From Aureliella helgolandensis (GTDB lineage Bacteria > Planctomycetota > Planctomycetia > Pirellulales > Pirellulaceae): a stretch of 64,000 nt of DNA. Made by a program: the position numbers and the translations under genes. The stretch spans positions 3,782,001-3,846,000 of the forward strand of contig NZ_CP036298.1 of the NCBI RefSeq assembly GCF_007752135.1. Reading direction: 5' to 3'. Positions 1-45,499 of this stretch are shown one piece after another. Below the pieces are notes generated by a model. That model was not told the origin of the DNA. It ran no database searches and saw only the letters and a list, made by a program, of their open reading frames with translations. The stretch's first letter is position 1. Each line of letters opens with the position of its first letter.

Positions 1-342
1 TCAGTGCGCGTCGGAATTATCACAGCTTCAACTCAAAACCCTCGACAATTTGTTCAGCGACGCGGTCGCCTGCTCCGACGCGACCCGAATAGTCCGAAGT
101 CTCATGCTGTGATCTACGATTTCATCGTTTTGCCGCCACTTACTAACGGGGTGAATCTTGAATCTGAGAAAACGTTAATTGGAGCAGAGTTATCACGTTC
201 TGCGGAGTTGGCCGACGCCGCGCGGAACCGCGAGGTGCTGTTCGACATTCGCGAGTGGGCCTATCATTATCAACTTGATCCAGAGAAATACACTTGGATG
301 GAACTTTCAGGCCAAGAACCAATGCAGGAGTGGATACCATGA
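1..342 (+). CDS. C-terminal end of a Dnd-linked SF2 restriction helicase (partial)
   Basis: The frame is open from base 1, so the gene begins left of the window and only its last 113 codons are here. An SF2 helicase motif VI is visible (ENPRQF-like stretch, then QRRGRLLRRDP), followed by a YDFIVLP block typical of the helicase annotated as 'DNA phosphorothioation system restriction enzyme'. Such proteins couple ATP-driven DNA translocation to restriction in Dnd loci. The stop overlaps the next ATG (ATGA), so the four rightward genes are probably one transcript. The helicase assignment is firm from motif VI; the Dnd subtype rests on remembered family sequence plus the neighbours. Confidence 0.75.
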   Translation, partial: SVRVGIITASTQNPRQFVQRRGRLLRRDPNSPKSHAVIYDFIVLPPLTNGVNLESEKTLIGAELSRSAELADAARNREVLFDIREWAYHYQLDPEKYTWMELSGQEPMQEWIP

Positions 343-521
343 GCGCTTTCCAAGAACGAATGAAGAAGCTCGCGAGCGAGCTATCACCAGAAGCGAAGGA
401 TATTGTGAAAAAGGTCGTTACGGCCGAACATCATAAGCGTTTCAGTGACCGCAGCAATCTTCCAGATGAATTTGCAACTGCAGCGTTGCAAGCAGCCAAA
501 CGCAAAGAAGCGACATCATGA
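339..521 (+). CDS. Small 60-aa hypothetical protein between helicase and dndD
   Basis: This short reading frame encodes a charged, mainly helical 60-aa protein (MSAFQERMKKLASEL at its start, Lys-rich end). Its ATG overlaps the helicase stop and its own stop overlaps the dndD start, ATGA at both junctions. Double translational coupling is the main reason to accept it. No cysteine, membrane segment or signal peptide is present. I do not recognise the family. From its position it could be a small adaptor for the helicase or DndD, but that is inference only. Confidence 0.65.
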   Translation: MSAFQERMKKLASELSPEAKDIVKKVVTAEHHKRFSDRSNLPDEFATAALQAAKRKEATS

Positions 522-2650
522 AGTTTATCTCACTGAGAATGAGAAACTGGCGATCTTTCCAAGGTCAGCATGAGATCGAGTTTTCCGTTGATCCAGAACG
601 CCCCGTAACGTTACTGCTGGGCCCCAACGGTGCTGGCAAAACGGCACTACTGAACGCCTTCACTTGGGCGATATATGGTGAATTCACTGAGGGCTTCGAT
701 CACACGGATCGCTTGGTGAATCTTGCAGCAGCGGAGCTCGACAAATCGGCGGATGCATTCGTTGAGATTCGACTGCAACATGAGGAAGACGAATATAGCG
801 TTCGACGATCCACTAACGCACAGCGACAATTGACGGCGGATAACGACTTGGTCGTTACGCGAAACGGCGAGCGCGCGGTCGAAGCCGATATTCATCGCAT
901 CCTTCCCAAGCCGTTAAAGGACTTGTTCTTCTTCCCGGCTGAGACCTTCAGCACAGCAAGCGTGTTGAAGGGGGACAATGGCAGAGAGGGAACATCGTTT
1001 GATGTGGGCAGGGCAATCCGGTCGCTGCTCTCTGGCGACATCTATCAGAATGCAAGCCAAGACATCCGCGACGCAATTAACAGCAATACGTTAAAGCCAC
1101 CCAAAAGGGGGCACGGGCAAGAGGCTGTCGATTCCGCGCGACATCAGTATGAACAAGCGGAGGCGGACCTCAATGCGATCGAGTCACGCAAGGATGAGTT
1201 GCCGAACTTACTCTCGACGGCGACAAAGCAGGCAGCGAAGGCGAAGTCTGAAGCTGAGCGATACGATCCAAAGGAAATCCAGAAATGGAGCCTACAGAAT
1301 GACCGCCTCAATAAGTCGGTCGACGCAGCCAAAGAACTTGTTCAGCGAGCTGATTCTATCTATATGGATTTATCGAGGAGCTCCCACCTTCATTTGGCAC
1401 AGTACGCGTGCGAATCAGCAATTCGGAGGCTGGATCTCGCCGAAACGGCTGGCCTGATGCCTCCACGTATTCATGAGTCGGTTCTTGAAAAAACGCTGGA
1501 AACAGGACAGTGCACTCTGTGCAGAACTCCTCTCACAATCCAAACAAGAGAACGCATCCAGATGCTGAGAGACCGCGTGGGTGATGCTCAAATCGCAGTC
1601 CGCGGTTTGGAAGCGCGCTCAATGTTGAAGCAGTATCTGGTGCGAAGAGAATCGGAAGTTGATCGGCTACGCGGAGAAATTGAAAAACTCGCAACTGAAC
1701 TCGAAATACCATCTCCAGCGAAAGATGCCAATTTTAAGATTCTCGCAGCAGTAGCCCGATCTTGTATTACGGTCAGTAATGGGCTCCAACGGCAAGCGAG
1801 AATGGATCTCGACAAGTTCATTGCAGAAGCAAATATAGAGCGACCGGCGGATGGCAGAAGCCCGGTTGAAATCGCGATCAACGCTCAGAACCGTGTAGAT
1901 ACAATTGACAATGAACTCGCCAGGATCGATTCACTCGTGGACTCAGCGAAGAAGTCACGGGATGAAACGTTCAAAAACTATAAGGAAAAGTCTGGTAAGT
2001 CGGACGAACATAAGCAGAAAACCATTGCCATCGAAATTTTGCAACATGCCAAAGGTTACTTTGACTCGGCGCGCCAAGGACTTGAAGATTTCGGCCGGGA
2101 AGACTTCGAGAAAGCGATCAACAAAACTTACTCCGACCTGATCGCTAAACCGTTCACAATTAAGGTTGATACGGATTTCAGCATTCGGGTGCAGCTCACT
2201 GATAGTCGCGAAACGGTCCCGCTTTCGCAATCAGAGAAAGTGCTTTTGCTTATAGCCTTTCTTGGTGCGATCGCTCGGCTGGCGCCTCACTACGAAGACA
2301 TCGCAAAGCACAATCAACAACTTTCAATGACCGGCACCGTTGCAACGTCTAAGCGAACTGGATTTCCTGTTGTTCTTGACGCCCCCACCAGTCCGTTGGA
2401 CGAGGAATACGAGATCGAAGTCGTCGATGCGCTTCCAAACCTGCTACCACAGATCATCGTTCCCGTCTCTGCAAAGTCAGTCACCGTCTGGGAGCGAATC
2501 GCAGACAAGGTAGGCAAAGCATACGTTATGGAACTGACATCAAGCACTGCATCTAATCGAAAAGTGACTTGGAGCGGAAAGGATTATGTTTACAGCGTCA
2601 ACAATGCGGATGCTTTGCCCGCTCGAACCCGTATTGCGTCACTTAATTAG
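518..2650 (+). CDS. dndD: DndD-like SMC/Rad50-type ATPase of DNA phosphorothioation
   Basis: This 710-aa protein has the layout of DndD: an N-terminal RMRNWRSF block and Walker A (GPNGAGKT, about residues 37-44), a long coiled-coil middle with a zinc-hook CxxC (C332-TL-C335), then a signature-like LSQSEKVLLL and a Walker B/D-loop (VVLDAPTSPLDEEY). DndD works with DndC and DndE in replacing a non-bridging backbone oxygen with sulfur. Its ATPase is thought to open or nick the DNA for that step. The length fits the family, usually about 650-700 aa. The ATG overlaps the preceding stop. DndC and DndE are not in the window, so whether the modification pathway is complete cannot be judged from here. 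Confidence 0.85.
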   Translation: MKFISLRMRNWRSFQGQHEIEFSVDPERPVTLLLGPNGAGKTALLNAFTWAIYGEFTEGFDHTDRLVNLAAAELDKSADAFVEIRLQHEEDEYSVRRSTNAQRQLTADNDLVVTRNGERAVEADIHRILPKPLKDLFFFPAETFSTASVLKGDNGREGTSFDVGRAIRSLLSGDIYQNASQDIRDAINSNTLKPPKRGHGQEAVDSARHQYEQAEADLNAIESRKDELPNLLSTATKQAAKAKSEAERYDPKEIQKWSLQNDRLNKSVDAAKELVQRADSIYMDLSRSSHLHLAQYACESAIRRLDLAETAGLMPPRIHESVLEKTLETGQCTLCRTPLTIQTRERIQMLRDRVGDAQIAVRGLEARSMLKQYLVRRESEVDRLRGEIEKLATELEIPSPAKDANFKILAAVARSCITVSNGLQRQARMDLDKFIAEANIERPADGRSPVEIAINAQNRVDTIDNELARIDSLVDSAKKSRDETFKNYKEKSGKSDEHKQKTIAIEILQHAKGYFDSARQGLEDFGREDFEKAINKTYSDLIAKPFTIKVDTDFSIRVQLTDSRETVPLSQSEKVLLLIAFLGAIARLAPHYEDIAKHNQQLSMTGTVATSKRTGFPVVLDAPTSPLDEEYEIEVVDALPNLLPQIIVPVSAKSVTVWERIADKVGKAYVMELTSSTASNRKVTWSGKDYVYSVNNADALPARTRIASLN

Positions 2651-2663
2651 GAGAGAATTCTAC

Positions 2664-3209
2664 ATGGCTAACGTAACAATCTATGCGGAACATCGCGATA
2701 TGCTTGATGCTCTCATCACGTCGGGGAAGGTTGCCTCAATCGCAGGCGCTACCAAGACCGGCCCTTTTAAAGACCAGCGAGACGCGTACGTGTTTGCCGC
2801 TTCCATCGCAATTGCTTTGAACAACCCGACAGCGGTCGATTCGATGCCTAAGACGACGAAGGATAACACATTGATCAAGGATCATACTTTACTTGCTGCT
2901 AATGGTGGCAAAGAGATTGCGATTACAGTTGCAATGACAACTATGGATATTGAGCATTTAACGATCGATCAATCTCTGTCGTACCAGCTCGACCTAATAT
3001 CCGAAGAACGGGTGGTTGAGAGATTGTCGTTGCTCGACCGTTTCGCACATGCTGGGTTCAAATGGTTAGCTGAGCGTCGCGATGATGAAAGCAGTATCCG
3101 CGACCTAATGCTCACAGCCATTGACGAAATTGATTGCTTGAAGTCGGATGACTCCGCCACCGAAGATGTTCGCGACCCACTTCTCGATTTGCTAGATATG
3201 CAGCTCTGA
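2664..3209 (+). CDS. Small Dnd-associated protein (dnd_assoc_4-like)
   Basis: The protein is 181 aa and starts at the ATG at 2664, which has a good Shine-Dalgarno (TAGGAG at 2648-2653) overlapping the dndD stop. It is soluble and acidic, with a pattern of 'F..QRDAYVFAASIAIAL' near residue 35 and 'LLDRFAHAGFKWLAER' near residue 125. This resembles my memory of the 'dnd system-associated protein 4' family, which also pairs a YVFAA-type motif with a FE.YA-type helix. Biochemical function is unknown. Being last in the operon after dndD supports a Dnd role. It ends about 60 bases before the convergent DndB remnant. Confidence 0.5.
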   Translation: MANVTIYAEHRDMLDALITSGKVASIAGATKTGPFKDQRDAYVFAASIAIALNNPTAVDSMPKTTKDNTLIKDHTLLAANGGKEIAITVAMTTMDIEHLTIDQSLSYQLDLISEERVVERLSLLDRFAHAGFKWLAERRDDESSIRDLMLTAIDEIDCLKSDDSATEDVRDPLLDLLDMQL

Positions 3210-3268: not shown

Positions 3269-3809
3269 CTATTCACACAGTTTTTCTAGCGGGTCATCAA
3301 TTTCCAGGACCAGCTCCTCTGGCGCGGCGCGTTCCAGGGACTCAACAAGCTTTTCCGCCATGAATTTTGAACACTTGAGGGATTCACCTTCCCCGTAAAT
3401 TCCAGCTGTCTCTTGCAAATGCTTTCGAACCAGCGAACGCCAGGACGGACTATACGTCTTCTTAAGTTTCTGCCAGCCCACTAGACCTCGAATGCTTTTG
3501 AGTTCAAAGATTTCGTGGATATACTCCGTTGCTAGCATTTTTACTTCCTCTGGGGAGCGCCCACGCCAATCTTCATAAGGTGCGAGGAGAGTGTAAATCA
3601 AGAAAGAAACGACTGACTTTTCCGCAGTTCGAGTTACGTTGAGAGTGTCGTCATCGCGAACCAAGAACCCAGTCCAAAAACAACGCAGCCGAGAAATATA
3701 GCCAACCCTTTCGTTAAAAAGTTCTGCCCAAACATTGGCGTACTCGTTCGGAGTAATCGGATCATTTTCGGTCATCTGGACTCTGCACATTTCAACGAAT
3801 GCTGTCAGT
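3269..3809 (-). pseudogene. C-terminal part of the DndB-like gene, cut off by IS21
   Basis: Reading leftward from the IS boundary, codons run without a stop through AFVE and then the 173-aa frame starting ATG at 3790. Removing the IS and one GTCAGT copy joins this frame exactly to the DGQHR gene at 6518-7803 (…AILT then AFVEMC), giving a 606-codon gene. The segment is mostly helical with no motif I recognise, so it looks like the C-terminal domain of the DndB-like protein. An in-frame ATG 19 bases from the IS end could in principle allow separate translation. No clear ribosome binding site is seen. Confidence 0.85.
3804..3809. repeat. Left target-site duplication of IS21 element (GTCAGT)
   Basis: GTCAGT directly abuts the left IS end (TGTTCGG…) and is repeated directly after the right end at 6518-6523. 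The next bases outside differ, so the duplication is exactly 6 bp. IS21-family elements commonly make 4-8-bp duplications. The intact pair points to a simple and fairly recent insertion. Confidence 0.9.
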
Positions 3810-3874
3810 TGTTCGGCGACAACTACCTCTGCGCTTTAGCGACAACTAGAAGTTCCTATCGAGTATTGGGATTT

Positions 3875-3934
3875 GCCGTAGCTGCCGAGTTGTGAAGTGA
3901 GCCGTAGGCGAACGAGCAACTCGGCAGCTACGGC
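3875..3934. terminator. 18-bp perfect inverted repeat downstream of istB
   Basis: GCCGTAGCTGCCGAGTTG at 3875-3892 is perfectly complementary to 3917-3934, with a 24-base loop. It lies between the istB stop and the left IS end. There is no run of T after it on either strand. It could end istB transcription, block readthrough, or act as a translational shield against transcripts entering from outside. Confidence 0.55.
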
Positions 3935-3959
3935 GTCGACTGGGCTAGCCTAGTGGTTC

Positions 3960-4724
3960 CTAACCGTCTGCCTGCTTGGACTGCTTGGCTTGGGCCAGGC
4001 GGTAGCTTTCAGCGTTCAATTCGAGGATTACACTGTGGTGGACCAAGCGGTCGATGGCAGCCGCCGTGGTCATCGGATCTTTGAAGATCTGCTCCCACTT
4101 GCCGAACGGGAGATTGCTTGTCAGCATAACGCTGCTGCGTTCGTAGCGGTCGGCGAGTAACGTGAAGAGCACTTCCATCTCCTCGCGACTCTGCTGCACA
4201 TAACCGATATCGTCGATCATTAGAGCGTCGAAACGACCGAGGCTCTTCAATACGCGGCTTAGCTTAAGGTCCCGCTTGGCGATCAGTAAGTCTTGAACCA
4301 ACAGGCTGCAACTGCTGAAGTACACCCGCCGGCCCTGGCGAATCAATTCCTGCGAAATTGAACTCAGTAAATGCGTCTTTCCGCTACCCGGCTTACCGAA
4401 CGCGAGCACGTTTTCGCAGCGATCGACGAAGGAGCCCTCGAGCAGGCTACGCACCTGCCGAGACACTTTCGTCGGTAGACGCTTCAGATCGAAACTCTCC
4501 AGCGTCTTCTCCAGTGGAAGACGGCTCTTGCGGAGTGCCGACTCGATGCGATTCGTCTGGCGAGTCTGGCATTCCAGCGACGCCAACTCCTGCAAGTATT
4601 GCTCGTAGCTTAGGCTCTGCTGTTCGGCTCGTCGGGCTACAGGCTCGTAGTTCTCCCGGAATTCCGGTAAGCGGAGCTCGCGTAGCTGGTCGGTCAACAA
4701 TTCCTTCGTATCCTTGGCCTTCAT
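3960..4724 (-). CDS. istB: IstB-type AAA+ transposition helper ATPase
   Basis: The product is 254 aa with a Walker A (GKPGSGKTH, residues 110-118) and Walker B (ALMIDDIGYVQQ), matching the DnaC/DnaA-like IstB family that assists IS21 target capture. I chose the ATG at 4724 over the upstream ATG at 4742 because AAGGAGG lies just 5' of 4724. The start lies inside the reading frame of istA, so the two are translationally linked. Length and motifs are normal for the family. Confidence 0.93.
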   Translation of the reverse strand: MKAKDTKELLTDQLRELRLPEFRENYEPVARRAEQQSLSYEQYLQELASLECQTRQTNRIESALRKSRLPLEKTLESFDLKRLPTKVSRQVRSLLEGSFVDRCENVLAFGKPGSGKTHLLSSISQELIRQGRRVYFSSCSLLVQDLLIAKRDLKLSRVLKSLGRFDALMIDDIGYVQQSREEMEVLFTLLADRYERSSVMLTSNLPFGKWEQIFKDPMTTAAAIDRLVHHSVILELNAESYRLAQAKQSKQADG

Positions 4725-6339
4725 CACTGCCCTCCTTGGCATAAGTTAAAAAAACATCCTGACTATCAACAACTTGTTCACAGCATCGCAATGCCTGCCG
4801 CAGTTCGCCGGTTACTTCTACCGCATTCACGGCTTCGTCCACTCCCGTGTCGCTGTACCAACTGTCAGTCTCGTCCAGCAAACTATCGAAGCTCGACAGG
4901 TTTACTGGCTCGACATCTACGTCCGTCACACTTGCTAGCTGCCTGGAGTCCGAGCGAACAAGTAGTTGGACCTGCAGCGAGCTGAGCGATTTCGTGCCGG
5001 CCAGCAGCTCACGCAGTACGTCATCGACTTGTGATTCGCTCTCGCGGGCAGCCAAATGCAAAATGGCTAAGTATTCCTTGGCCGAACGACGTGCGTCGTG
5101 ACGCTCACGCAACGCGTCGTAGGCCATCCGGAAATTCGTTGTTGGGAATAGCTCGTCTTGGTAACGGTAATTCTCAAACGCGCCCGGCTTGCGTACGAGC
5201 CAGTCGATAATATGGCGGTAGTTGATCAGTTGCTTGTCGCGACCTCGAAGACGCGGAAAACTATCAACACATTTCTGTGCGTACCAGATCTCAATGTGAT
5301 CCATGTAGATACGAGCTTCGACCTCTTCACCGATCAGCCGACTGTGCACCGAATACGTATTCCGACTAACTTGGATCAGGCTGCCGGTACGCACGCGTAC
5401 ACGCTCTTTACGAACGCTCTCGAGCCGACTCGTCGGAAGGCCTCGCAACTGTGCGACGTCTTCTGCCGCACGCTTGCTGCGCGACATATTGCGACTGGTT
5501 ACCAACGACTGAAGAAACTCCTCGTAACTCTGGGCGTTTGAGAACTCTCGACTGCCACGCAACATCAAGGCTTGGTCGACCGCTGTCTTGAAACCGCGGT
5601 GCGATGATTCGACATCACCGTTTTCGTTCGGGCAGCGTGGCTGAGTCTTCTCAATCTTCACGCGATAGTGCTCCATCAAGGCTTGATATCGCCCAGTGAA
5701 CTCGCGTCGATCACACTGGTTGTTAACCGCTGCGCTGAGCCGGTCGGTGCGATGGCGGCGGGGCACACCGCCAAGCCGATGCAGGGCGTTCTGCAGCCCT
5801 TCACTCAGGCTTTCAAAACTCTCTGAGTAGCATACGGTTATCGCTTCCCAATTCGAGTACGTCAGCACGAAGTGATAGACCATGTGGGCATAGTGCTGAC
5901 CAGCAATCGTCACATCCAAGCCGCTCATGTCGCTAAAGTCGGAGGCACTCAGGTCACCTGGATGATGCACCTGGGAAAAGTACACTTCTTTGGCAGGACC
6001 CGAGCTGCCACGCCACTGCTTGATCCGTCGCTGTAACGTGCGAAGGTGGCTCTGGTCAAAATCGTCCGGATGCTCGCGGCACAACCACTCCAGCAGCGTT
6101 TTCGCCTGAAGCCCAGGGCTCTCAACTAACCGCTCCTCAATCGACGGCCATACCGACTCCAGAGGATCCTGCCGAGTTCGGTAAGCCCGCGGCATTCGCG
6201 TTTCACTTGGCAGCTGTTCCATGCTTCGATACTTCCTTGCAGTACGCTCACTCATCCCTGTCCTTAGCGCTGATTCGACCAAGGTCTTGCCAGACGACAA
6301 AAGACGATGCAGCTTCTTAACTTGACGATCCTGAATCAC
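4447..6339 (-). CDS. istA: IstA-type DDE transposase
   Basis: The frame encodes 630 aa. An N-terminal helix-turn-helix (GMSERTARKYRSM, about residues 28-40) precedes an rve-type DDE core with likely catalytic residues D134 (SASDFSD), D199 (HRTDRL) and E244 (NGDVESSHRGF). This is the IS21 transposase that binds the terminal boxes. Most IstA proteins are about 500 aa and stop near the istB start. Here the frame runs about 278 bases into istB, adding a low-complexity tail (about residues 540-630) that is a by-product of istB codons. That tail may be tolerated or may mark a lost stop codon. Confidence 0.93.
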   Translation of the reverse strand: MIQDRQVKKLHRLLSSGKTLVESALRTGMSERTARKYRSMEQLPSETRMPRAYRTRQDPLESVWPSIEERLVESPGLQAKTLLEWLCREHPDDFDQSHLRTLQRRIKQWRGSSGPAKEVYFSQVHHPGDLSASDFSDMSGLDVTIAGQHYAHMVYHFVLTYSNWEAITVCYSESFESLSEGLQNALHRLGGVPRRHRTDRLSAAVNNQCDRREFTGRYQALMEHYRVKIEKTQPRCPNENGDVESSHRGFKTAVDQALMLRGSREFSNAQSYEEFLQSLVTSRNMSRSKRAAEDVAQLRGLPTSRLESVRKERVRVRTGSLIQVSRNTYSVHSRLIGEEVEARIYMDHIEIWYAQKCVDSFPRLRGRDKQLINYRHIIDWLVRKPGAFENYRYQDELFPTTNFRMAYDALRERHDARRSAKEYLAILHLAARESESQVDDVLRELLAGTKSLSSLQVQLLVRSDSRQLASVTDVDVEPVNLSSFDSLLDETDSWYSDTGVDEAVNAVEVTGELRQALRCCEQVVDSQDVFLTYAKEGSDEGQGYEGIVDRPATRAPLTGIPGELRACSPTSRTAEPKLRAILAGVGVAGMPDSPDESHRVGTPQEPSSTGEDAGEFRSEASTDESVSAGA

Positions 6340-6510
6340 GTAACTCTCCTTCTACAAGAGAGTTACGATTGTCCACCAACAGATCGAAACCGGTAATTCT
6401 AATTGTCGTCGGCAGGCTCGCCTTAACCCGCACACACGCCCCAAACTACCAACACCCAAACCCCCAAACCGGAACTTCTAGTTGGCGTCAGCCGGCAAAT
6501 CTAGTTGTCG

Positions 6511-7803
6511 CTATACAGTCAGTATTGCTTTTTGAAAAACCAGCTGAAAAGCCAGGTCGTCTGATTTCTCCGCACTAATGACTTTCTCTAGCTGAGTGAA
6601 GTTATGTCCGGAACCGAAGGATTCCGCGAACGCTTTCTTGCCGTGACGATCCATCGCCGCCCAGCACTCAAGGCTTCCATCGAGTATTCGGAGCTTTCGA
6701 AGTTTTTCAATAAAAGACCTATAGGGAGCAGTCGAAGTAAGAACTTTTGATAATGCCGGGCCCCACGACGATACAAACCATCGCTGGAGTTGCTCAAGCT
6801 CAGTCCATCCAAGATAAATCGGAAGGTTGTTTTTCCTGGCGTCACTTACTGCGCCATCAAAATTTAAGCTATTGTCAAGCTGCTTAAAGTGACGCAACCA
6901 ATCTTGGGCCTTGTCGTAATCATAATGGTCGAGTTTGGGAATGTCTAAGAATTCAGCAACAGTTTTGTACAGTGCCAGCAAAGATGTTAGATGAATACCC
7001 TTATCGAATCTTAGACTATCCGAATACCAGTCAACCAGCGCAAGTGGGAGGCTTCCAATTGCAAGGCGCTGCTCAAGAGTTTGTTCGTCAGGTCTCACTC
7101 TTCGTTCCATCAATGTCCGAGTAAGCACTGCTGCCGGATCACGATCGTCTAGCAAAACATTACGTGTTTCGCTAACGGTTTTGGCTTGTCGGTTTAAGTC
7201 AATAAATATCTTCCTGACACTTGATAGTAAGTTTGCATTGTCCGTCTTGAATCCTATCGATGAATCTAAGAGCAGTAGTACTACTGGAATCGAAACATCT
7301 TTCAGGTTTTCTGGGGCGACATCCGCTAGAGACTTTAGTGCAGAATACCTGTGTTGTCCGTCGACAACAATCGCTTTCAATTCATTAACGTCCCATCGAA
7401 TTGTGCCATAGCTAGTTGCCGTTTTTTCCCCTGTACTACTCTCCCTTTTCGCATATCTAATTTTGACCCCTTCCAGCTCATCCTTATTGCCTTCCCGCCG
7501 AACTGAATACTTCGTTTTCAGTTGGTTCCTTTGATGCGGCAACAGCACCACGACAAGCGCGCTAAAAAACTTGAGCTCTCCTTGACGCATTAGATATGGG
7601 GCAATTTCCGACTTGACTCTGAGATCATCAATGTCGCGCTGGAACAATTCTTCTAACACGATTTCGGCAGGATCGAAAATCAATTCACGTGCCACGTGCA
7701 GATTCCCTATCGCTTCATCTGCAGCCATCGTTAGCATGAAATACGGTACCTTGCAGCCGGTGAGTTCAAACGCTCCGCTTACGAAAGGAAATTCGGGTGT
7801 CAT
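6511..7803 (-). pseudogene. dndB: DGQHR-domain DndB-like protein, N-terminal 429 of 606 codons
   Basis: The DGQHR box (VVDGQHRYSAL, residues 148-152 for DGQHR) and the later FIDLNRQAKTVSETR block are hallmarks of DndB and related DGQHR proteins. In several bacteria DndB acts as the transcriptional regulator of dnd genes and affects how many sites are sulfur-modified. The current stop codon comes from the IS21 end: bases 6511-6517 are IS sequence and the native frame continues at 3809. The DGQHR domain itself is whole, so a truncated protein with some activity is possible. It begins 140 bases from the divergent nuclease gene. At 606 aa the ancestral protein was longer than usual DndB (about 350-400 aa). 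Confidence 0.8.
6518..6523. repeat. Right target-site duplication of IS21 element (GTCAGT)
   Basis: Second copy of the 6-bp direct repeat found at 3804-3809, immediately outside the right IS end (…CTATACA). Confidence 0.9.
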
Positions 7804-7942
7804 GGCAGTTCAGACCTTCCGCTTCAAAAGTGGTTTTCGGAAAAAGATAGATAGTGCGCAGGCCTTGGGGGACAGTTTTGCTAAGGTAATCTACCCGAAT
7901 TTCCCTCCTATGTCCGTATGGAAGCGCCTAACAGCGAAAACA

Positions 7943-8848
7943 ATGACTGACAACAATGAAAGTTTATTGCATCACCTGCGGTCCCTGAATGTTTGGCGAC
8001 GAGACGGCGAACGTGCACCGCATAAACCGCTACTCGTGTTACTCGCTTTGGCAAAATGCTCACGTGGAGAGCCGCGATTGATTCCGTACGCGGAAATCGA
8101 CAAGCCATTGCAGGATTTGTTGCGCGAGTTCGGGCCGCCGCGTAAGTCTTTTCACAGCGAGTATCCGTTTTGGCGATTGCAGAACGACGGAATCTGGGAG
8201 CTGGCGAATGCGGAACAAGTCGAAGCGCGTGCAGGAAATAACGACGCCAAGAAAAGCGAATTGCTAAAATATGGCGTTTCAGGAGGTTTCAAGCGGGATG
8301 TTTATGAAGCGTTGGCAAGCGACAGGAGTCTGCTTCGGGCGGCCGCATCTCTATTGCTCGAGTCTACTTTTCCAGATTCATACCACGAGGACATCTTGTC
8401 TGCCGTCGGGCTTGATGACGCTTTTGAGTCGACGATGCGCCGAAAAAGAGATCCGAAGTTCCGCGAGCTGGTGCTGATGGCTTACGAGTACCAATGCGCA
8501 ATCTGTGGTATGGACCTGAGATTAGGCGGACGCGAACTCGGACTTGAAGCGGCGCATATTAAGTGGCATCAGGCGGGCGGGCCAGACATAGCGAACAATG
8601 GACTGGCACTGTGCTCACTGCACCACAAGCTTCTAGATCGCGGCGCTATTGGCATCACGCCAGCCCTTCGCGTTCAAGTTTCGCAACTTACATCCGGTAA
8701 CGCTGGTTTTCAGAACTGGGTCTTACCTTTCAACGGAACGCTCGTTCGAGAACCACAGTCTAGCGACTATGTTCTGGAGCAGGAGTTTATCGACTGGCAC
8801 ACTCACGAAGTCTTTCGTGCTCCACCACGCGAATGGGAAGTGTCATGA
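7943..8848 (+). CDS. SBD-HNH phosphorothioate-recognising restriction endonuclease
   Basis: The 301-aa product matches the two-domain 'phosphorothioated DNA-binding restriction endonuclease' family. The N-terminal sulfur-binding domain includes RAPHKPLLVLLAL (about 24-37) and FGPPRKSFHSEYPFWRLQNDGIWE (about 63-86). The C-terminal HNH domain has C185/C188, the LEAAHIKWHQ block (E202, H205), N219 and LCSLHHKLLDRG (H227/H228). Relatives such as ScoMcrA bind phosphorothioate DNA and cut nearby. I prefer the ATG at 7943 because it directly precedes the conserved N-terminus; an in-frame ATG at 7910 is possible. It is transcribed divergently from the DndB-like gene, and its stop overlaps the next start (ATGA). 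Placement beside DndD is unusual for a nuclease that attacks modified DNA. Confidence 0.88.
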   Translation: MTDNNESLLHHLRSLNVWRRDGERAPHKPLLVLLALAKCSRGEPRLIPYAEIDKPLQDLLREFGPPRKSFHSEYPFWRLQNDGIWELANAEQVEARAGNNDAKKSELLKYGVSGGFKRDVYEALASDRSLLRAAASLLLESTFPDSYHEDILSAVGLDDAFESTMRRKRDPKFRELVLMAYEYQCAICGMDLRLGGRELGLEAAHIKWHQAGGPDIANNGLALCSLHHKLLDRGAIGITPALRVQVSQLTSGNAGFQNWVLPFNGTLVREPQSSDYVLEQEFIDWHTHEVFRAPPREWEVS

Positions 8849-9414: not shown

Positions 9415-11724
9415 GTGTCAGTGGAAGAGGGAAAACAAGTTGACTTGAGCGAATTGCCGGTCGAAGTTCTGCGCCATCGGGCCGCAATCCGGCGTTCGGA
9501 ACCATCGCTACCACTCAAATGCTTGATACGCGATAACCTGCTGCACTCTGAGACTACCTTCTTCGACTACGGTTGCGGCTATGGCGACGATCTGGAGCAA
9601 GTCGGTCGGTTGGGGTTCGAAGCCAATGGCTGGGATCCGGCCTATCGACCGGACGAATCACGCCGCGAAGCCGATGTGGTGAACCTGGGCTACGTCATCA
9701 ATGTAATTGAAGATCAAGTGGAGCGTGAAGAGACGCTTCGGTTGGCTTGGGGATTGGCGAAAAGCGTCTTGTCGGTTGCGGCTCGGATTGCCGTGGATGG
9801 TACGGGCGACGGCGACTTTGAATTCGGTGATGGAGTCATCACGCGAATTCAAACTTTCCAAAAGTACTTTACGCAGACCGAGCTGCGGCTCTACATCGAA
9901 CAAACGCTCGGCACCGAGGCCGTACCGGCAGCTCCAGGTGTATTCTACGTCTTCAAGGACGCTGGCCTGCGCGAGTCTTTTTCGGCTTCGAAGTATCGTC
10001 GGCGCATCGTGGCTCCCCGCCGGCGAGTGGCGGAGATCCAGTTCGATCGACACCGCGAATTGCTGGAGATGTTGATCCACGTAGCTTCAGAATTGGGACG
10101 GCTTCCGTTCCACGACGAGTTCGAACGGACGGACGAAGTGCTTGCGGCGTTCGGCACGATGAAACGCGCCTTCAAGTTGATTCGCAAAGTTACGGGGGCG
10201 GATCCTTGGGATACACTGCGTCAGAGCCGTATCGACGATTTGCGGGTGTATTTGGCACTGGCGCGGTTCCCAAAGCGGCCAGCGCTGTCTCACATGCCGG
10301 TAGGCATGCAACGCGACATCAAGGAGTTCTTTGGCGGTTACAAAGCCGCTTGTGACTCTGCGGACGCACTCTTGTTTGAGGCAGGCGAGTCGGAGATGAT
10401 CGACGCGGCCTGCCAGCGAGCGACGCTCGGCCGGCTTACCACCAACGCTTTGTACCTCCATCGCTCCGCAGTATCGTCGCTTGAGCCGGTGTTGCGGGTC
10501 TTCGAAGGATGTGCGCAAGCCTACCTTGGTGACGTAGACGACGCCAACGTCGTGAAACTCCATCGCTTTTCCGGGAAAATTTCGTATCTCGCTGTGCCTC
10601 GGTTTGATGAGATCCCGCATCCTCCAGTGCGACGCACGATTAAGCTTTCGCTTCGCAATCTGTTCCTGCAATGCATCGATCACACGGAGAACAAGAATCC
10701 TTTGTTGCTGGACCGAAAAGAGAAAATGATAGAAGCAGACCATCCTTGGCGTGATCGCTTTGCACGGTTCACTGTCCAGGAAGCCCAGCATGGATTGTTG
10801 GAAGACCTCGTAGATATGCAGCTAGCTCTTAATTGGCACATGCGATTGAAGGAAGCCGGTCTAATGATTCGCGGCTATCGTCTGCTTTATCGTGAAGGCG
10901 TTGCTAGAAAACGCCTACCGCCGAAAACGTTGTTTGTTGACGAGAGCGACTCGTCTGAATGCACCCTAGAGCAAGATTCCGTTTCGGACTTGGAGTTCAC
11001 GACGCCTCGCGATCTACCTGCGAACCTAGCAATCGATTCGGATGAAGAGGATGCTGCTGACCTAGACAGCAGGCCGCAGGCCGAACTGCCAACGCGCTCT
11101 CGACGTTTTGGTATTGGCAAAGAGATAGGGTACGCCGTCTACATCCACCGACAGTACGAGGACGCTCTGGGAGCCACCGTCGAGTGGGCGAAACGGCATT
11201 TGCCGCAAGACTATGACTACAATGTGGTCAAGCTCAATCAACGAAATGATTCCGTTTCATTTATCCGCTGTCCCGGATTCGACACTGAACACGAGCCAGT
11301 GATCACCGCGATTATTGTCATTAGTGCGAACGGCACTGCCCAGCGGCGAACATTGCCTAGCGATTCGTACATTTATCATCATAAGTGGTTGTTTGTTGAC
11401 GATGACTATCAAGGTTTTGACGTCACTGCGAGCAAAGAGCGTTCTCAACAGTGGAGTTCATTAGAAAATGTGGACAGGTCTCGTATTGGTCGCAAGAGCT
11501 ACTGGGAAATACACGTTATGCCACGTCTAACACAACAGCCTGTGGATCGCTGGGTACGGAGTGCAGAAGCACGGAAACAGTTGAAACTTTCGACTTGTGA
11601 TCTGGCCCACATGCGTGAGAACGGGGAAATTGAGTCGAAAAAGGTGGGCAATGCCTACCTATACAAAATGTCCAGCGACGGAGTTGCAAGTCAAGAGGCA
11701 GAAGTCCACCCTCCGAAGAATTGA
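9415..11724 (+). CDS. Dnd-associated putative methyltransferase with C-terminal extension
   Basis: Residues about 18-490 match the 'DNA phosphorothioation-associated putative methyltransferase' family: a SAM motif I (F50-D-Y-G-C-G-Y-G57), VVNLGYVINVIED, RIQTFQKYFTQTEL, PAAPGVFYVFKD, and later blocks such as VKLHRFSGKISYLAVPRFD. The family protein is normally about 450-500 aa. This one is 769 aa. After an acidic linker (about 515-560) comes an unrecognised region (IGYAVYIHRQYEDALG…), and the last 50 residues (RSAEARKQLKLST…NGEIESKKVGNAYLY) resemble an excisionase/MerR-like helix-turn-helix. Start is GTG at 9415 with AGAGGGA upstream. Target base and sequence specificity are unknown. Confidence 0.85.
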   Translation: MSVEEGKQVDLSELPVEVLRHRAAIRRSEPSLPLKCLIRDNLLHSETTFFDYGCGYGDDLEQVGRLGFEANGWDPAYRPDESRREADVVNLGYVINVIEDQVEREETLRLAWGLAKSVLSVAARIAVDGTGDGDFEFGDGVITRIQTFQKYFTQTELRLYIEQTLGTEAVPAAPGVFYVFKDAGLRESFSASKYRRRIVAPRRRVAEIQFDRHRELLEMLIHVASELGRLPFHDEFERTDEVLAAFGTMKRAFKLIRKVTGADPWDTLRQSRIDDLRVYLALARFPKRPALSHMPVGMQRDIKEFFGGYKAACDSADALLFEAGESEMIDAACQRATLGRLTTNALYLHRSAVSSLEPVLRVFEGCAQAYLGDVDDANVVKLHRFSGKISYLAVPRFDEIPHPPVRRTIKLSLRNLFLQCIDHTENKNPLLLDRKEKMIEADHPWRDRFARFTVQEAQHGLLEDLVDMQLALNWHMRLKEAGLMIRGYRLLYREGVARKRLPPKTLFVDESDSSECTLEQDSVSDLEFTTPRDLPANLAIDSDEEDAADLDSRPQAELPTRSRRFGIGKEIGYAVYIHRQYEDALGATVEWAKRHLPQDYDYNVVKLNQRNDSVSFIRCPGFDTEHEPVITAIIVISANGTAQRRTLPSDSYIYHHKWLFVDDDYQGFDVTASKERSQQWSSLENVDRSRIGRKSYWEIHVMPRLTQQPVDRWVRSAEARKQLKLSTCDLAHMRENGEIESKKVGNAYLYKMSSDGVASQEAEVHPPKN

Positions 11725-17828: not shown

Positions 17829-19525
17829 CTAGTGCATTGTCAAGACTAAGAATTAGGGTTGAGCGAGCGTTCGGAAAAAGGTGTCCGACACCAGAAGTGC
17901 AAAGCACCCGAAGGGCCGTTCCGGCTTTTGGTGTCGGACACGAATGGCACTTAATCGGCCTAAGGTACTGGTGCTTCTAGAGTTAAGTTCGATTGACAGC
18001 AGGGGGCTTCACTTGCGATGAGTTTGGGTAATCTTACCCTCCCGAACACACCAAGCAAGGAAGCCCCCGTGTGCCATCATCCGTTTGATTCGTTCCGCTG
18101 TCGAGTCCAACATGCGCGCCAACACGGCGATCTTTACTTCGCCGCCTTGATCTCCAAAGAGACTATCGCGTCAGTCTTTGGCAATGCAAGTGCCATTCTC
18201 GATTCGGCCAGAGTTTACAACACATCGGTCACGCTGTGGGTCTTCCTCTCGCAAGTCATGAGCATCCACCACGGCTGCGTCTCTGCGGTCGCCAAGCTGA
18301 TCACCCATCGAGTCGCCAACAACCAAACTGCTTGCTCTGCCGAAACCGGTGCTTACTGCATTGCTCGAGACAAAATCGACGAGCAATCCATGCAACGTCT
18401 TGTGACGGCCAGCGGACTTGCGATTGAAGACAGCAGTCCCGACCATTGGCGATGGCTGGGGCACCGCGTGATCACCGCCGATGGTGCCACCGTCACGATG
18501 GCAGACACGTCGGAGAATCAAGCCGCCTACCCGCAACTTAGTAGTCAAGCACCCGGTTGTGGATTTCCGATCTTGCGAGTCGTTGTACTGTTCGCGTTGT
18601 CGACTGGCGTTGTGCTCGACATGGCGATGGGCCGATACAAAGGTAAGTTCACTCACGAAGTAAGTTTGTTTCGTCAGATCGACGCAATCATCGAAGAAAC
18701 CGATGTTTTCCTAGCTGATCGCGCCTATGCGGGTTGGTTCGAGATGGCGAGGATGATTCAACGTGGTGCACACGTCGTTGTTCGCAAACACCAGTTGCGC
18801 AAGTCAGATTTTCGGACTGGAATTCGTTACGGCAAAGACGATCACTCCATCCAAATCGACAAGCCAGCTCGTCCCGACTGGATGAGCATTGAAGAGTACG
18901 AGACGTACCCGGACTTCATCACCATTCGCGAGATCCGTATCCGAGTTGAGAACAACGGATTTCGCACTCGCGAGATTATCGTTCACACATCGCTGTCGGA
19001 CGATACGGAGTACACGAGGGAGGACATCGCGGCCCTGTTCCGTAGAAGGTGGCAAGCAGAACTTCATTTACGGAGCTTGAAAACGGTCATGCAGATGGAA
19101 CACTTGCGCTGTAAAAAGCCGCATCGAGTGCGGAACGAAATTCGGACGCACATGTTGGCTTACAATTTGATTCGCGGGGTGATGTCTGAAGCGGCCGTCG
19201 AAGGCGACGTTCAACCTTGGCATATCAGTTTCAAGTCAACACTGACAACGGTGACGGATATGCTTCCGGTTCTAGGCCTAATCAGCAACGCCGATGAATT
19301 ATGCACTGTGTTGTACCGCTGCTGCTTGCAACACGCAGTTGGCAATCGACCGGACCGCTACGAGCCCAGGGTGCTCAAGCGAAGACCGAAGAAATACAAG
19401 CTGATGCAAAAGCCAAGAAGCGAATACAAACCCGGGGAGGCATAGGACTTACGCCGATTAAGTGCCATTCGTGTCGGACACCTTTTTCCGGGCAGCCCAA
19501 AAACTAAGCTTTGACAATGCACTAG
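17829..19525 (+). mobile_element. IS4-family insertion sequence flanked by CTAG
   Basis: The inner element is 17833-19521 (1689 bp), with inverted ends TGCATTGTCAA(g/a), flanked on both sides by CTAG, which could be a 4-bp target duplication or part of the ends. Sub-terminal blocks carry a GGTGTCCGACACC / GTGTCGGACAC palindrome set on both sides. The single transposase gene is intact. The same ends and sub-terminal blocks recur at 56559-56706 without the gene. Confidence 0.92.
18018..19445 (+). CDS. IS4-family DDE transposase
   Basis: The 475-aa product has the IS4 catalytic pattern: D155 (ITADGATVTM), D234 (VFLADRAYAGW) and E348 in the YREK-like block (RRWQAELHLRSLK). A long insertion between the second D and the E is also typical. 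It catalyses cut-and-paste movement of its element and could supply transposase in trans to the 148-bp derivative at 56559-56706. No frameshift or stop interrupts it. Length is normal for IS4 transposases. Confidence 0.93.
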   Translation: MSLGNLTLPNTPSKEAPVCHHPFDSFRCRVQHARQHGDLYFAALISKETIASVFGNASAILDSARVYNTSVTLWVFLSQVMSIHHGCVSAVAKLITHRVANNQTACSAETGAYCIARDKIDEQSMQRLVTASGLAIEDSSPDHWRWLGHRVITADGATVTMADTSENQAAYPQLSSQAPGCGFPILRVVVLFALSTGVVLDMAMGRYKGKFTHEVSLFRQIDAIIEETDVFLADRAYAGWFEMARMIQRGAHVVVRKHQLRKSDFRTGIRYGKDDHSIQIDKPARPDWMSIEEYETYPDFITIREIRIRVENNGFRTREIIVHTSLSDDTEYTREDIAALFRRRWQAELHLRSLKTVMQMEHLRCKKPHRVRNEIRTHMLAYNLIRGVMSEAAVEGDVQPWHISFKSTLTTVTDMLPVLGLISNADELCTVLYRCCLQHAVGNRPDRYEPRVLKRRPKKYKLMQKPRSEYKPGEA

Positions 19526-44263: not shown

Positions 44264-45499
44264 ATGACAGATCATCAGTCTCCCCATGTCGTCGTGATTG
44301 GCGGCGGTCCAGCCGGTGCGACTGTTTCGACCTTGATTGCTCAGCAAGGGTATCAAGTCGAGCTGTTCGAGCGTGAAAAGTTTCCCCGCTACCATATTGG
44401 AGAGTCGCTGATTCCCGAAACATATTGGGTTTTGAAGCGACTGGGGATGCTCGCCAAGATGAAGTCGAGCCACTTCGTCAAGAAACATAGCGTGCAGTTT
44501 GTGAGTCCTTCGGGCAAGCATTCCGCCCCCTTCTACTTTCAGGACAACAAGCCGCACGAATGCTCGCAGACATGGCAGATTCGTCGGAGCGAATTCGACG
44601 TGATGATGTTGAAGAACGCTGAAGAGCAAGGTGTCATTGTTCACGAAAATGTGCGAGTTCACGATGTCCTTTTCGCGGGAGATCAAGCGGTCGGTGTGCA
44701 AATCACGGACGAGTCCGGAAAATCGAAAGAGGTTCGGGCAAGTGTGGTCGTAGATGCCAGCGGGCAAAGCTCAATGCTCATTAACAAGTTCAAGCTCCGA
44801 ATTCCCGATGCTGAATTGAACAAGGGAGCGATTTGGACCTACTTCGAGGGTGCGTATCGAGATCAAGGCAAGGATGAGGGGGCGACCATCGTTCTGAGCT
44901 TGCGAGACAAGAAGGGCTGGTTCTGGTACATTCCGATGCAAGACGACACGGTGAGCGTCGGCGTGGTGGCAGATTTCGACTATCTGTTCAAAGGGCGAGT
45001 GAATCATGAGACCACTTTTGCGGAGGAAATGGAGAACTGCCTCAGTGTAAAAGAGCGGATCTCGAACGCAAAACAAGTCGCCCCGGTGAAGGCGACAAAA
45101 GATTACACCTACCGTGCCAGTCAAGCCGCAGGTGACGGTTGGGTGTTGGTCGGTGACGCGTTCGGATTCCTCGATCCGCTTTATTCATCAGGAGTGATGC
45201 TGGCGTTGAAATCTGGAGAACTTGCTGCCGACGCGATTGTCGAAGGCCTGCAGAAAGGCGATACCTCTCAGGCGCAGATCGGGAAATGGGAGGCGGGGTT
45301 CGTGGAAGGAATGAATCGGATGCGCCGGCTGGTGTGCGAGTATTACGAGGGATTCAATTTCGGCGAGTTCATACGCCGCTTCCCTCACCACCGAGGAAGC
45401 GTTACCGACCTGCTCATCGGAGACCTGTTCAGGCAGGAGCTCGACCAAGTATTCGATGATATCGATTCAATGAGATCGGCGAAGAGTCCAGTCGAATAG
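44264..45499 (+). CDS. Flavin-dependent halogenase-like FAD enzyme
   Basis: The 411-aa product has a FAD-binding Rossmann start (VVVIGGGPAGA, GxGxxG at 13-18), an FPRYHIGESLIPETY block, a Lys-rich spot FVKKHSVQF (K73/K74) where halogenases carry their catalytic Lys, WFWYIP (W219-P224), the WxWxIP signature of flavin-dependent halogenases, and FLDPLYSSGV (302-311) with the FxDPxxSSG pattern. These features separate it from plain geranylgeranyl-reductase-like enzymes, though the two families are related. It would use reduced FAD, halide and oxygen to halogenate an aromatic or pyrrolic substrate. Substrate and flavin reductase partner are not evident nearby. Confidence 0.78.
   Translation: MTDHQSPHVVVIGGGPAGATVSTLIAQQGYQVELFEREKFPRYHIGESLIPETYWVLKRLGMLAKMKSSHFVKKHSVQFVSPSGKHSAPFYFQDNKPHECSQTWQIRRSEFDVMMLKNAEEQGVIVHENVRVHDVLFAGDQAVGVQITDESGKSKEVRASVVVDASGQSSMLINKFKLRIPDAELNKGAIWTYFEGAYRDQGKDEGATIVLSLRDKKGWFWYIPMQDDTVSVGVVADFDYLFKGRVNHETTFAEEMENCLSVKERISNAKQVAPVKATKDYTYRASQAAGDGWVLVGDAFGFLDPLYSSGVMLALKSGELAADAIVEGLQKGDTSQAQIGKWEAGFVEGMNRMRRLVCEYYEGFNFGEFIRRFPHHRGSVTDLLIGDLFRQELDQVFDDIDSMRSAKSPVE

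Follow-up and report, generated by a model that had tools for sequence, protein, structure and literature searches.

A long DGQHR gene in a phosphorothioate island of Aureliella helgolandensis, split by an IS21-family element

The window analysed here, a stretch of 64,000 nucleotides from Aureliella helgolandensis (contig NZ_CP036298.1, positions 3,782,001 to 3,846,000), carries two open frames on the two sides of an insertion sequence (IS), within an island of DNA phosphorothioate (PT) genes. The locus raises the question of whether the two frames are parts of one gene, and of what the protein of that gene did before the insertion. One 606-codon gene at 3269-7803, on the minus strand, was interrupted by a complete 2708-bp IS21-family element at 3810-6517. 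As a whole, the explanation that we lean towards is that the gene of a long DGQHR protein, a putative restriction accessory of PT systems, was split here and that this accessory was lost. The features of the gene and of the element are as follows.

3269..3809, minus strand: 3' part of the split gene, its C-terminal third; a frame of 173 amino acids (aa) from the ATG at 3790, which contains W472 of the joined reading
3804..3809: left copy of the target-site duplication GTCAGT
3810..6517, minus strand: IS21-family element, 2708 bp, both genes open, in the same orientation as the host gene
3960..4742, minus strand: istB helper ATPase, 260 aa (NF038214 260.2 bits, cut-off 200)
4447..6339, minus strand: istA transposase, mechanical open reading frame (ORF) of 630 aa, overlapping istB (NF033546 194.7 bits, cut-off 160)
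6511..7803, minus strand: 5' portion of the split gene, made up of 429 native codons followed by an IS-derived Val and TAG, with the DGQHR domain (Pfam DndB PF14072 58.4 bits, TIGR03187 60.4 bits; structure model with a predicted local distance difference test score, pLDDT, of 82.2)
6518..6523: right copy of GTCAGT
7348..7362, minus strand: DGQHR motif, residues 148-152, invariant in the aligned homologues (coordinates counted by hand from 7803)

One gene and its insertion

When the flanks were joined in silico without the element and without one copy of GTCAGT, 606 codons were obtained with the sole stop at the end. The exact coordinates, the GTCAGT duplication, the open joined frame and the homologues running across the junction bore out the original prediction of a single 606-codon gene split in frame by an IS21 element. 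The right frame as present encodes 430 aa, namely 429 native residues and one valine, and its TAG lies inside the element. Both the TAG and this last valine are IS-derived, in agreement with the earlier claim that the stop of the right part is IS sequence. The G+C contents of the left part (47.8%) and the right part (45.8%) agreed with one gene, compared with 55.1% in the element. That one gene was split by an IS21-family element is practically certain; as an event, the insertion is ordinary. Annotation of the locus as it stands would give a DndB-like protein for one half and an orphan for the other.

The homologue search, performed with a three-row alignment, yielded 77 loci, 63 of them with phmmer E < 1e-12. 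The profile and the junction alignment were built from 31 homologues of 590 aa or longer (E < 1e-28; the window protein excluded and two extra copies of one G331 protein removed), a length limit that makes the set lean towards full length. Two other alignments comprised 39 of the 46 listed homologues (A2) and 23 of the 46 together with the window frame (A3, 24 rows). The profile matched the joined protein in one domain, residues 2-502, with 335.4 bits, and the right part alone with 323.4 bits. The 173-aa frame alone gave a weak score of 7.1 bits, yet this was above all 200 shuffles (best 2.1). Furthermore, 29 of the 31 homologues ran through the junction, with at least 8 of 11 residues present on each side, and W472, located in the detached 173-aa frame, was kept in 30 of the 31. 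The junction sits within the motif AFxxVFQ(K/R)A in the aligned homologues. The relationship across the junction was thus found over the full length in the profile, the alignment and the tree. As a chance ORF, the 173-aa frame was rejected by the shuffle test and the junction alignment. The C-terminal third was poorly conserved, with a per-block identity of 0.04-0.20 from residue 421 onward.

The gene was carried by none of the 14 other same-genus genomes searched, and a match was found in 3 of 98 relatives and in 5 of 392 genomes of the phylum, the own genome included in both counts. Six peptide patterns from the single sequence found 10 stretches and no relative in the genome contigs. Searches with tblastn returned 7 plasmid records, none covering 80% of the query, and no match in phages. 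The homologues were distant, with 24-32% identity to the window protein in A3 and 33% at best among the tree proteins. Since the comparison within the species and the genus failed, the argument for one gene rests on these distant homologues.

Elements of the IS21 family have terminal inverted repeats and a direct target duplication. The window element has both, together with istA and istB, and nothing unusual was seen in this comparison. Its ends, TGTTCGGCGACAACTA and TGTATAGCGACAACTA, stand in inverted orientation, with 13 of 16 end bases in agreement (counted by hand). No second complete copy was found in the single-contig genome of 8.44 Mb, where all other matches were fragments. In the same-genus genome G007, a copy aligns at 79% with positions 1-2708 of the element and has a foreign flank at its left end; its right end coincides with a contig end, so this copy supports the left IS end only. 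For the right end, support comes from G010, where two partial copies break off at position 2708 within contigs, and from short derivatives elsewhere in the genome under study, which end at positions 1 and 2708.

A 302-bp element in the own genome (G000:C1:6193407-6193708, L113) has both IS ends (27 bp each, identical) and no room for transposase genes. It is a derivative of the window IS resembling a miniature inverted-repeat transposable element (MITE), and is flanked by the 7-bp duplication GTCTAAG, compared with 6 bp at the window element. In addition, two IS remnants were observed at G000:C1:1787051-1787448 (L007, L114) and 5383918-5384474 (L006, L115). One of them consists of 124 bp identical to IS positions 22-145 and a 27-bp end, and the other combines a 27-bp end with 407 bp of the transposase at 91% identity.

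The long DGQHR group and DndB

The 5' part passed the DGQHR domain model TIGR03187 (60.4 bits, cut-off 58.85), whereas the split gene failed the DndB equivalog model TIGR03233 (44.7 bits, 328 required). Two PF14072 loci were found in the genome, the split gene (57.8 bits) and a canonical DndB (464.7 bits). The latter is intact (TIGR03233 505.8 bits), precedes dndC, dndD and dndE in the same island, and lies about 12 kb from the split gene. The DGQHR motif and domain and the occurrence in PT islands are common to DndB and the split gene. Compared with the DndB of TIGR03233, of about 360 aa, the split gene is longer, with 606 codons, and falls in a different tree group. The long DGQHR proteins have lengths of about 590-765 aa, and Pfam and PADLOC matched this group only with their DndB models. 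The motifs QR (Q55 R56), DGQHR (D148-R152) and FxxxN (F200 N204) were invariant in the 24 rows of A3.

A tree of 89 DGQHR proteins was calculated by quick maximum likelihood, with a long-branch warning and with a root for drawing only. The 10 canonical-size DndB proteins formed one group with 100% support in the Shimodaira-Hasegawa-like approximate likelihood ratio test (SH-aLRT). These and 21 of the 24 medium-length proteins stood on one side, and the window protein stood with the other 54 long and three shortened proteins on the opposite side (100% support). Judging by the model scores and the tree, the gene is very probably not DndB but a member of a separate long DGQHR group. The earlier description as a Dnd gene was right in that it lies within the dnd island and shares the DGQHR domain; the description as DndB-type did not stand, given the 44.7 bits against 328, the intact DndB nearby and the tree.

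A third DGQHR group, of 531-543 aa, was observed in cyanobacteria near the long DGQHR gene (15 tree rows, 100% support; L033, L036-L043, L046, L048, L049, L058, L060 and L071).

Other members of the long group also looked broken or shortened. In L025, the C-terminal part was matched in another frame at profile positions 456-575, near the same region as the window cut. A frame change near the DGQHR motif was seen in L071 and an in-frame stop near the start in L037, while L049 had lost its end (414 aa) and L058 its start. Sequencing errors may account for these cases, since L025, L049, L058 and L071 come from drafts or metagenome-assembled genomes (MAGs) and L037 from a genome described as nearly complete.

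A possible restriction-side role and its loss

The neighbours of the homologues were studied at the 63 loci. SspB or SspC was found in 24 of them, DndE or DndD/PbeC in 29, and both in 1. Any PT-linked cluster was present in 54 loci, a methyltransferase in 19 and a canonical-size DndB in 8. Neighbour clusters were named after members that had been scanned or after genes of the island itself. Cluster c10 (about 150 aa) has no scanned member, and the count of 54 is unchanged without it, each c10 locus having another PT-linked cluster. The long DGQHR group thus occurs in both Ssp-type and Dnd/Pbe-type PT islands. Moreover, the gene directly upstream on the same strand belonged to one of three GIY-YIG-like clusters at 47 loci (38, 6 and 3). 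Twelve upstream proteins were scanned with Pfam, 10 from these clusters (L015 being a copy of L020) and those of L076 and G027, and 9 matched GIY-YIG PF01541 at E <= 0.03, 3 of these at or above the cut-off. In four close relatives (L019, L020, L023 and L024), the gene order was cysteine desulfurase, SspB, SspC, SspD, GIY-YIG-like, long DGQHR and helicase, with one small extra ORF in L019.

These neighbours, namely GIY-YIG-like, helicase, and Ssp or Dnd genes, point to a restriction-side accessory. The intact long DGQHR protein would be a nucleoside triphosphatase (NTPase) of the ParB/sulfiredoxin superfamily. It may team with a separate nuclease, which in most relatives would be the GIY-YIG-like protein encoded directly upstream, and the pair would discriminate PT-marked self DNA from unmarked DNA by a logic comparable to that of SspE or DndI. 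In the available parts of previous reports, SspE and DndI are described as a DUF262 NTPase with DGQQR joined to an HNH nickase, the NTPase being stimulated by PT (PMC9646914, PMC11662687), and DUF262 is related to the DGQHR domain via the QR, DGQHR and FxxxN motifs (PMC4619093, in the part available). These common motifs and the gene pairs suggest to us a PT-dependent nuclease made of two proteins, in which the long DGQHR protein would supply the NTPase. As far as those sources go, SspE and DndI have in common with the long DGQHR proteins the ParB-like NTPase domain, the DGQ(Q/H)R motif and the occurrence in Ssp and Dnd PT islands. They carry a fused nuclease, whereas that of the long DGQHR protein would be separately encoded, if at all; no HNH or DUF262 Pfam match was found in either split part or in the long homologues L015, L011 and L042. 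The chances of a restriction-side role for the intact protein, judged from this context, appear evenly balanced.

In this strain, the IS insertion probably inactivated the accessory layer; dndABCDE, the genes for modification, and the remaining restriction candidates (the Pbe genes and the PT-binding HNH protein) would be left in place. The PT modification genes are open frames, and the loss of one accessory layer is therefore more likely than changed modification. Of the original prediction, that the modification or restriction level may change without the C-terminal third, the part on restriction could be kept, and nothing was found to suggest altered modification.

Standalone GIY-YIG-type proteins at PT islands, as in the long DGQHR relatives, have been described before in the form of URI/GIY-YIG nucleases at Dnd borders (PMC10853773). 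The available part of that source does not mention pairing with a long DGQHR protein, and no such nuclease was found in this genome with the one query used. Likewise, SspFGH is a three-gene restriction module beside sspBCD, in which, according to the part available, a Walker A motif is present in SspF and SspH is partly FtsK-like (PMC8092258). Its composition differs from the GIY-YIG/DGQHR/helicase set. The split protein was also considered as an SspG-like part of SspFGH and rejected, the descriptions of SspF and SspH in that part of the source being unlike the neighbours. Tentatively, the split gene may be a member of an undescribed PT-linked restriction module, in which an NTPase of the long DGQHR type is paired with a GIY-YIG-like nuclease and frequently accompanied by a helicase. 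Such a module, working with both Ssp and Dnd/Pbe systems, would correspond to SspE and DndI but consist of two proteins, and would be broken in several genomes, perhaps from cost. In the literature searched on DGQHR, DndB, GIY-YIG, PT and Ssp, as far as its texts were available, no description of a long DGQHR/GIY-YIG module was found.

Attention is hereby drawn to a DGQHR group separate from DndB, which was PT-linked in 54 of the 63 loci and often had a GIY-YIG-like gene directly upstream; this group is more interesting than the insertion event itself. According to the available part of PMC8092258, 2,211 of 2,678 sspBCD loci (printed as 83.9%) are without sspFGH and without sspE. The GIY-YIG-like/long DGQHR pair is a candidate partner for some sspBCD loci without sspFGH or sspE. 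If the restriction-partner reading is true, the insertion cost the strain a single accessory layer of restriction, without effect on modification or on the remaining layers.

Several results weigh against a restriction partner of this kind. The likeness to SspE and DndI rests on short motifs and gene context, neither sequence nor fold having matched them. No solved structure reached E <= 0.001 in Foldseek searches with the model of the 430-aa frame or of the intact relative L019. Both SspE and DndI were absent from the best 50 of 63 rows of one search and from the 49 of 49 rows of the other, the presence of their entries in the library being unconfirmed, and the family profile matched three structure chains at E <= 1, none of them SspE or DndI. 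Furthermore, 9 of the 63 loci had none of the PT-linked clusters in the fetched DNA, and the loci are not independent, with many close cyanobacterial relatives and with L063 and L064 identical. Six of the nine PF01541 matches were below the cut-off, the upstream protein of L076 showed a GIY_YIG_2 match only (E 0.066), and those of L015 and G027 had no Pfam match. The window locus itself has no GIY-YIG-like gene directly upstream, the divergent gene of the PT-binding HNH protein being there instead. A GIY-YIG partner elsewhere in this genome was not found with the one query used (best E 0.66), which indicates that the usual pair is not present in this genome.

The effect of the cut was considered with structure models. 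The model of the 430-aa frame was fair (pLDDT 82.2, predicted template modelling score, pTM, 0.74), and that of L019 was good (pLDDT 86.8, pTM 0.80) and confident over most of the region lost in the window gene. In the L019 model, the cut aligns to about residue 472, inside a predicted helix (462-476), and the lost part is a mainly helical region with a beta hairpin. Loss of function is the likely consequence of the insertion. That the 430-aa product still works, with its conserved part complete and the C-terminal third dispensable, is doubtful. All invariant or nearly invariant columns of A3 except a tryptophan (column 745) do precede the junction, the model of the remaining part is fairly confident, the identity beyond residue 421 is low (0.04-0.20 per block), and the relative L049 likewise ends early at 414 aa. 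However, W472 and the continuous junction are kept in 30 and 29 of the 31 homologues, a set leaning to full length, and the confident L019 model of this part and the cut inside a predicted helix also argue for a needed C-terminal region.

Less probable still is a role of the long DGQHR protein as a back-up or suicide effector, which would degrade nucleotides or host DNA at system failure and whose cost the IS insertion would relieve. Such a role was proposed generally for ParB-type DndB and border nucleases of Dnd systems in the available part of PMC10853773, and the long group has five further members with a broken or shortened appearance. Four of these five come from drafts or MAGs and one from a genome close to completion, where sequencing errors may be the cause.

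A third possibility, that the split gene is a DndB-type transcriptional regulator and that the loss of its C-terminal third alters dnd expression and the PT level, ranks lower again and is judged unlikely. DndB was reported as a negative regulator of dndBCDE in the parts available of PMC6459918 and PMC10853773, and the split gene has the DGQHR domain and a Pfam DndB match (58.4 bits). The original prediction of such a regulator was not upheld, because the DndB equivalog cut-off was missed by far, the canonical DndB is intact in the same island, the tree group is separate, and the homologue loci include SspB or SspC in 24 of 63 and a canonical-size DndB besides in 8. Finally, two unrelated genes or an assembly artefact can practically be dismissed: the 173-aa frame alone has no family match and only the weak profile score, but the GTCAGT duplication, the other IS copies with the same ends, the single-contig genome and the homologues across the junction contradict it.

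The surrounding island

Before the window, the PT genes comprise a cysteine desulfurase (DndA model 442.2 bits, below the cut-off of 480), then DndB, as well as DndC (556.9 bits, cut-off 290.4), DndD (545.6 bits, cut-off 245.85) and DndE (86.3 bits, cut-off 25). The features of the island within the window, besides the split gene, are listed below. The labels PbeB and PbeD were given by position, after the available parts of PMC10853773 and PMC6459918; PbeB has 66 aa in the latter.

1..342, plus strand: C-terminal end of a PbeA-like helicase, the gene starting before the window at L005 18108 (PDLC02707 552.9 bits for the L005 part)
339..521, plus strand: small ORF lying between pbeA and pbeC and comparable in size to PbeB, 60 aa counted from ATG, without family match and named by position
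518..2650, plus strand: PbeC-like ABC ATPase, 710 aa (PDLC02750 222.6 bits; DndD TIGR03185 80 bits, below the cut-off of 245.85)
2664..3209, plus strand: gene in the PbeD position, weakly dnd_assoc_4-like (TIGR04062 22.7 bits, below the cut-off of 74.25); start chosen, mechanical ORF from 2586
7943..8848, plus strand: phosphorothioated-DNA-binding HNH restriction endonuclease, divergent from the split gene (NF045808 362.3 bits, cut-off 180); start chosen, mechanical ORF from 7613
9415..11724, plus strand: DNA phosphorothioation-associated putative methyltransferase, mechanical ORF (TIGR04096 564.1 bits, cut-off 150)

No PADLOC match was obtained for the gene in the PbeD position, and a promoter and terminator scan of 7700-8000 gave no site of either kind. 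No further break was seen in the island genes, whose catalytic residues and full lengths compared with relatives were not checked.

The gene between dndE and pbeA, at L005 15636-18107, encodes a protein of 823 aa that matches sigma-70 region 4 (39.1 bits), and related large proteins were observed in L065 and L070 with PbeC-type and helicase genes. A second mobile element lies near the island, an IS4-family transposase at window positions 18018-19445 (187.5 bits, cut-off 115). Further away, at 44264-45499, an FAD-dependent halogenase-like protein was found, whose match to the CmlS model (229.4 bits, cut-off 900) indicates family likeness only.

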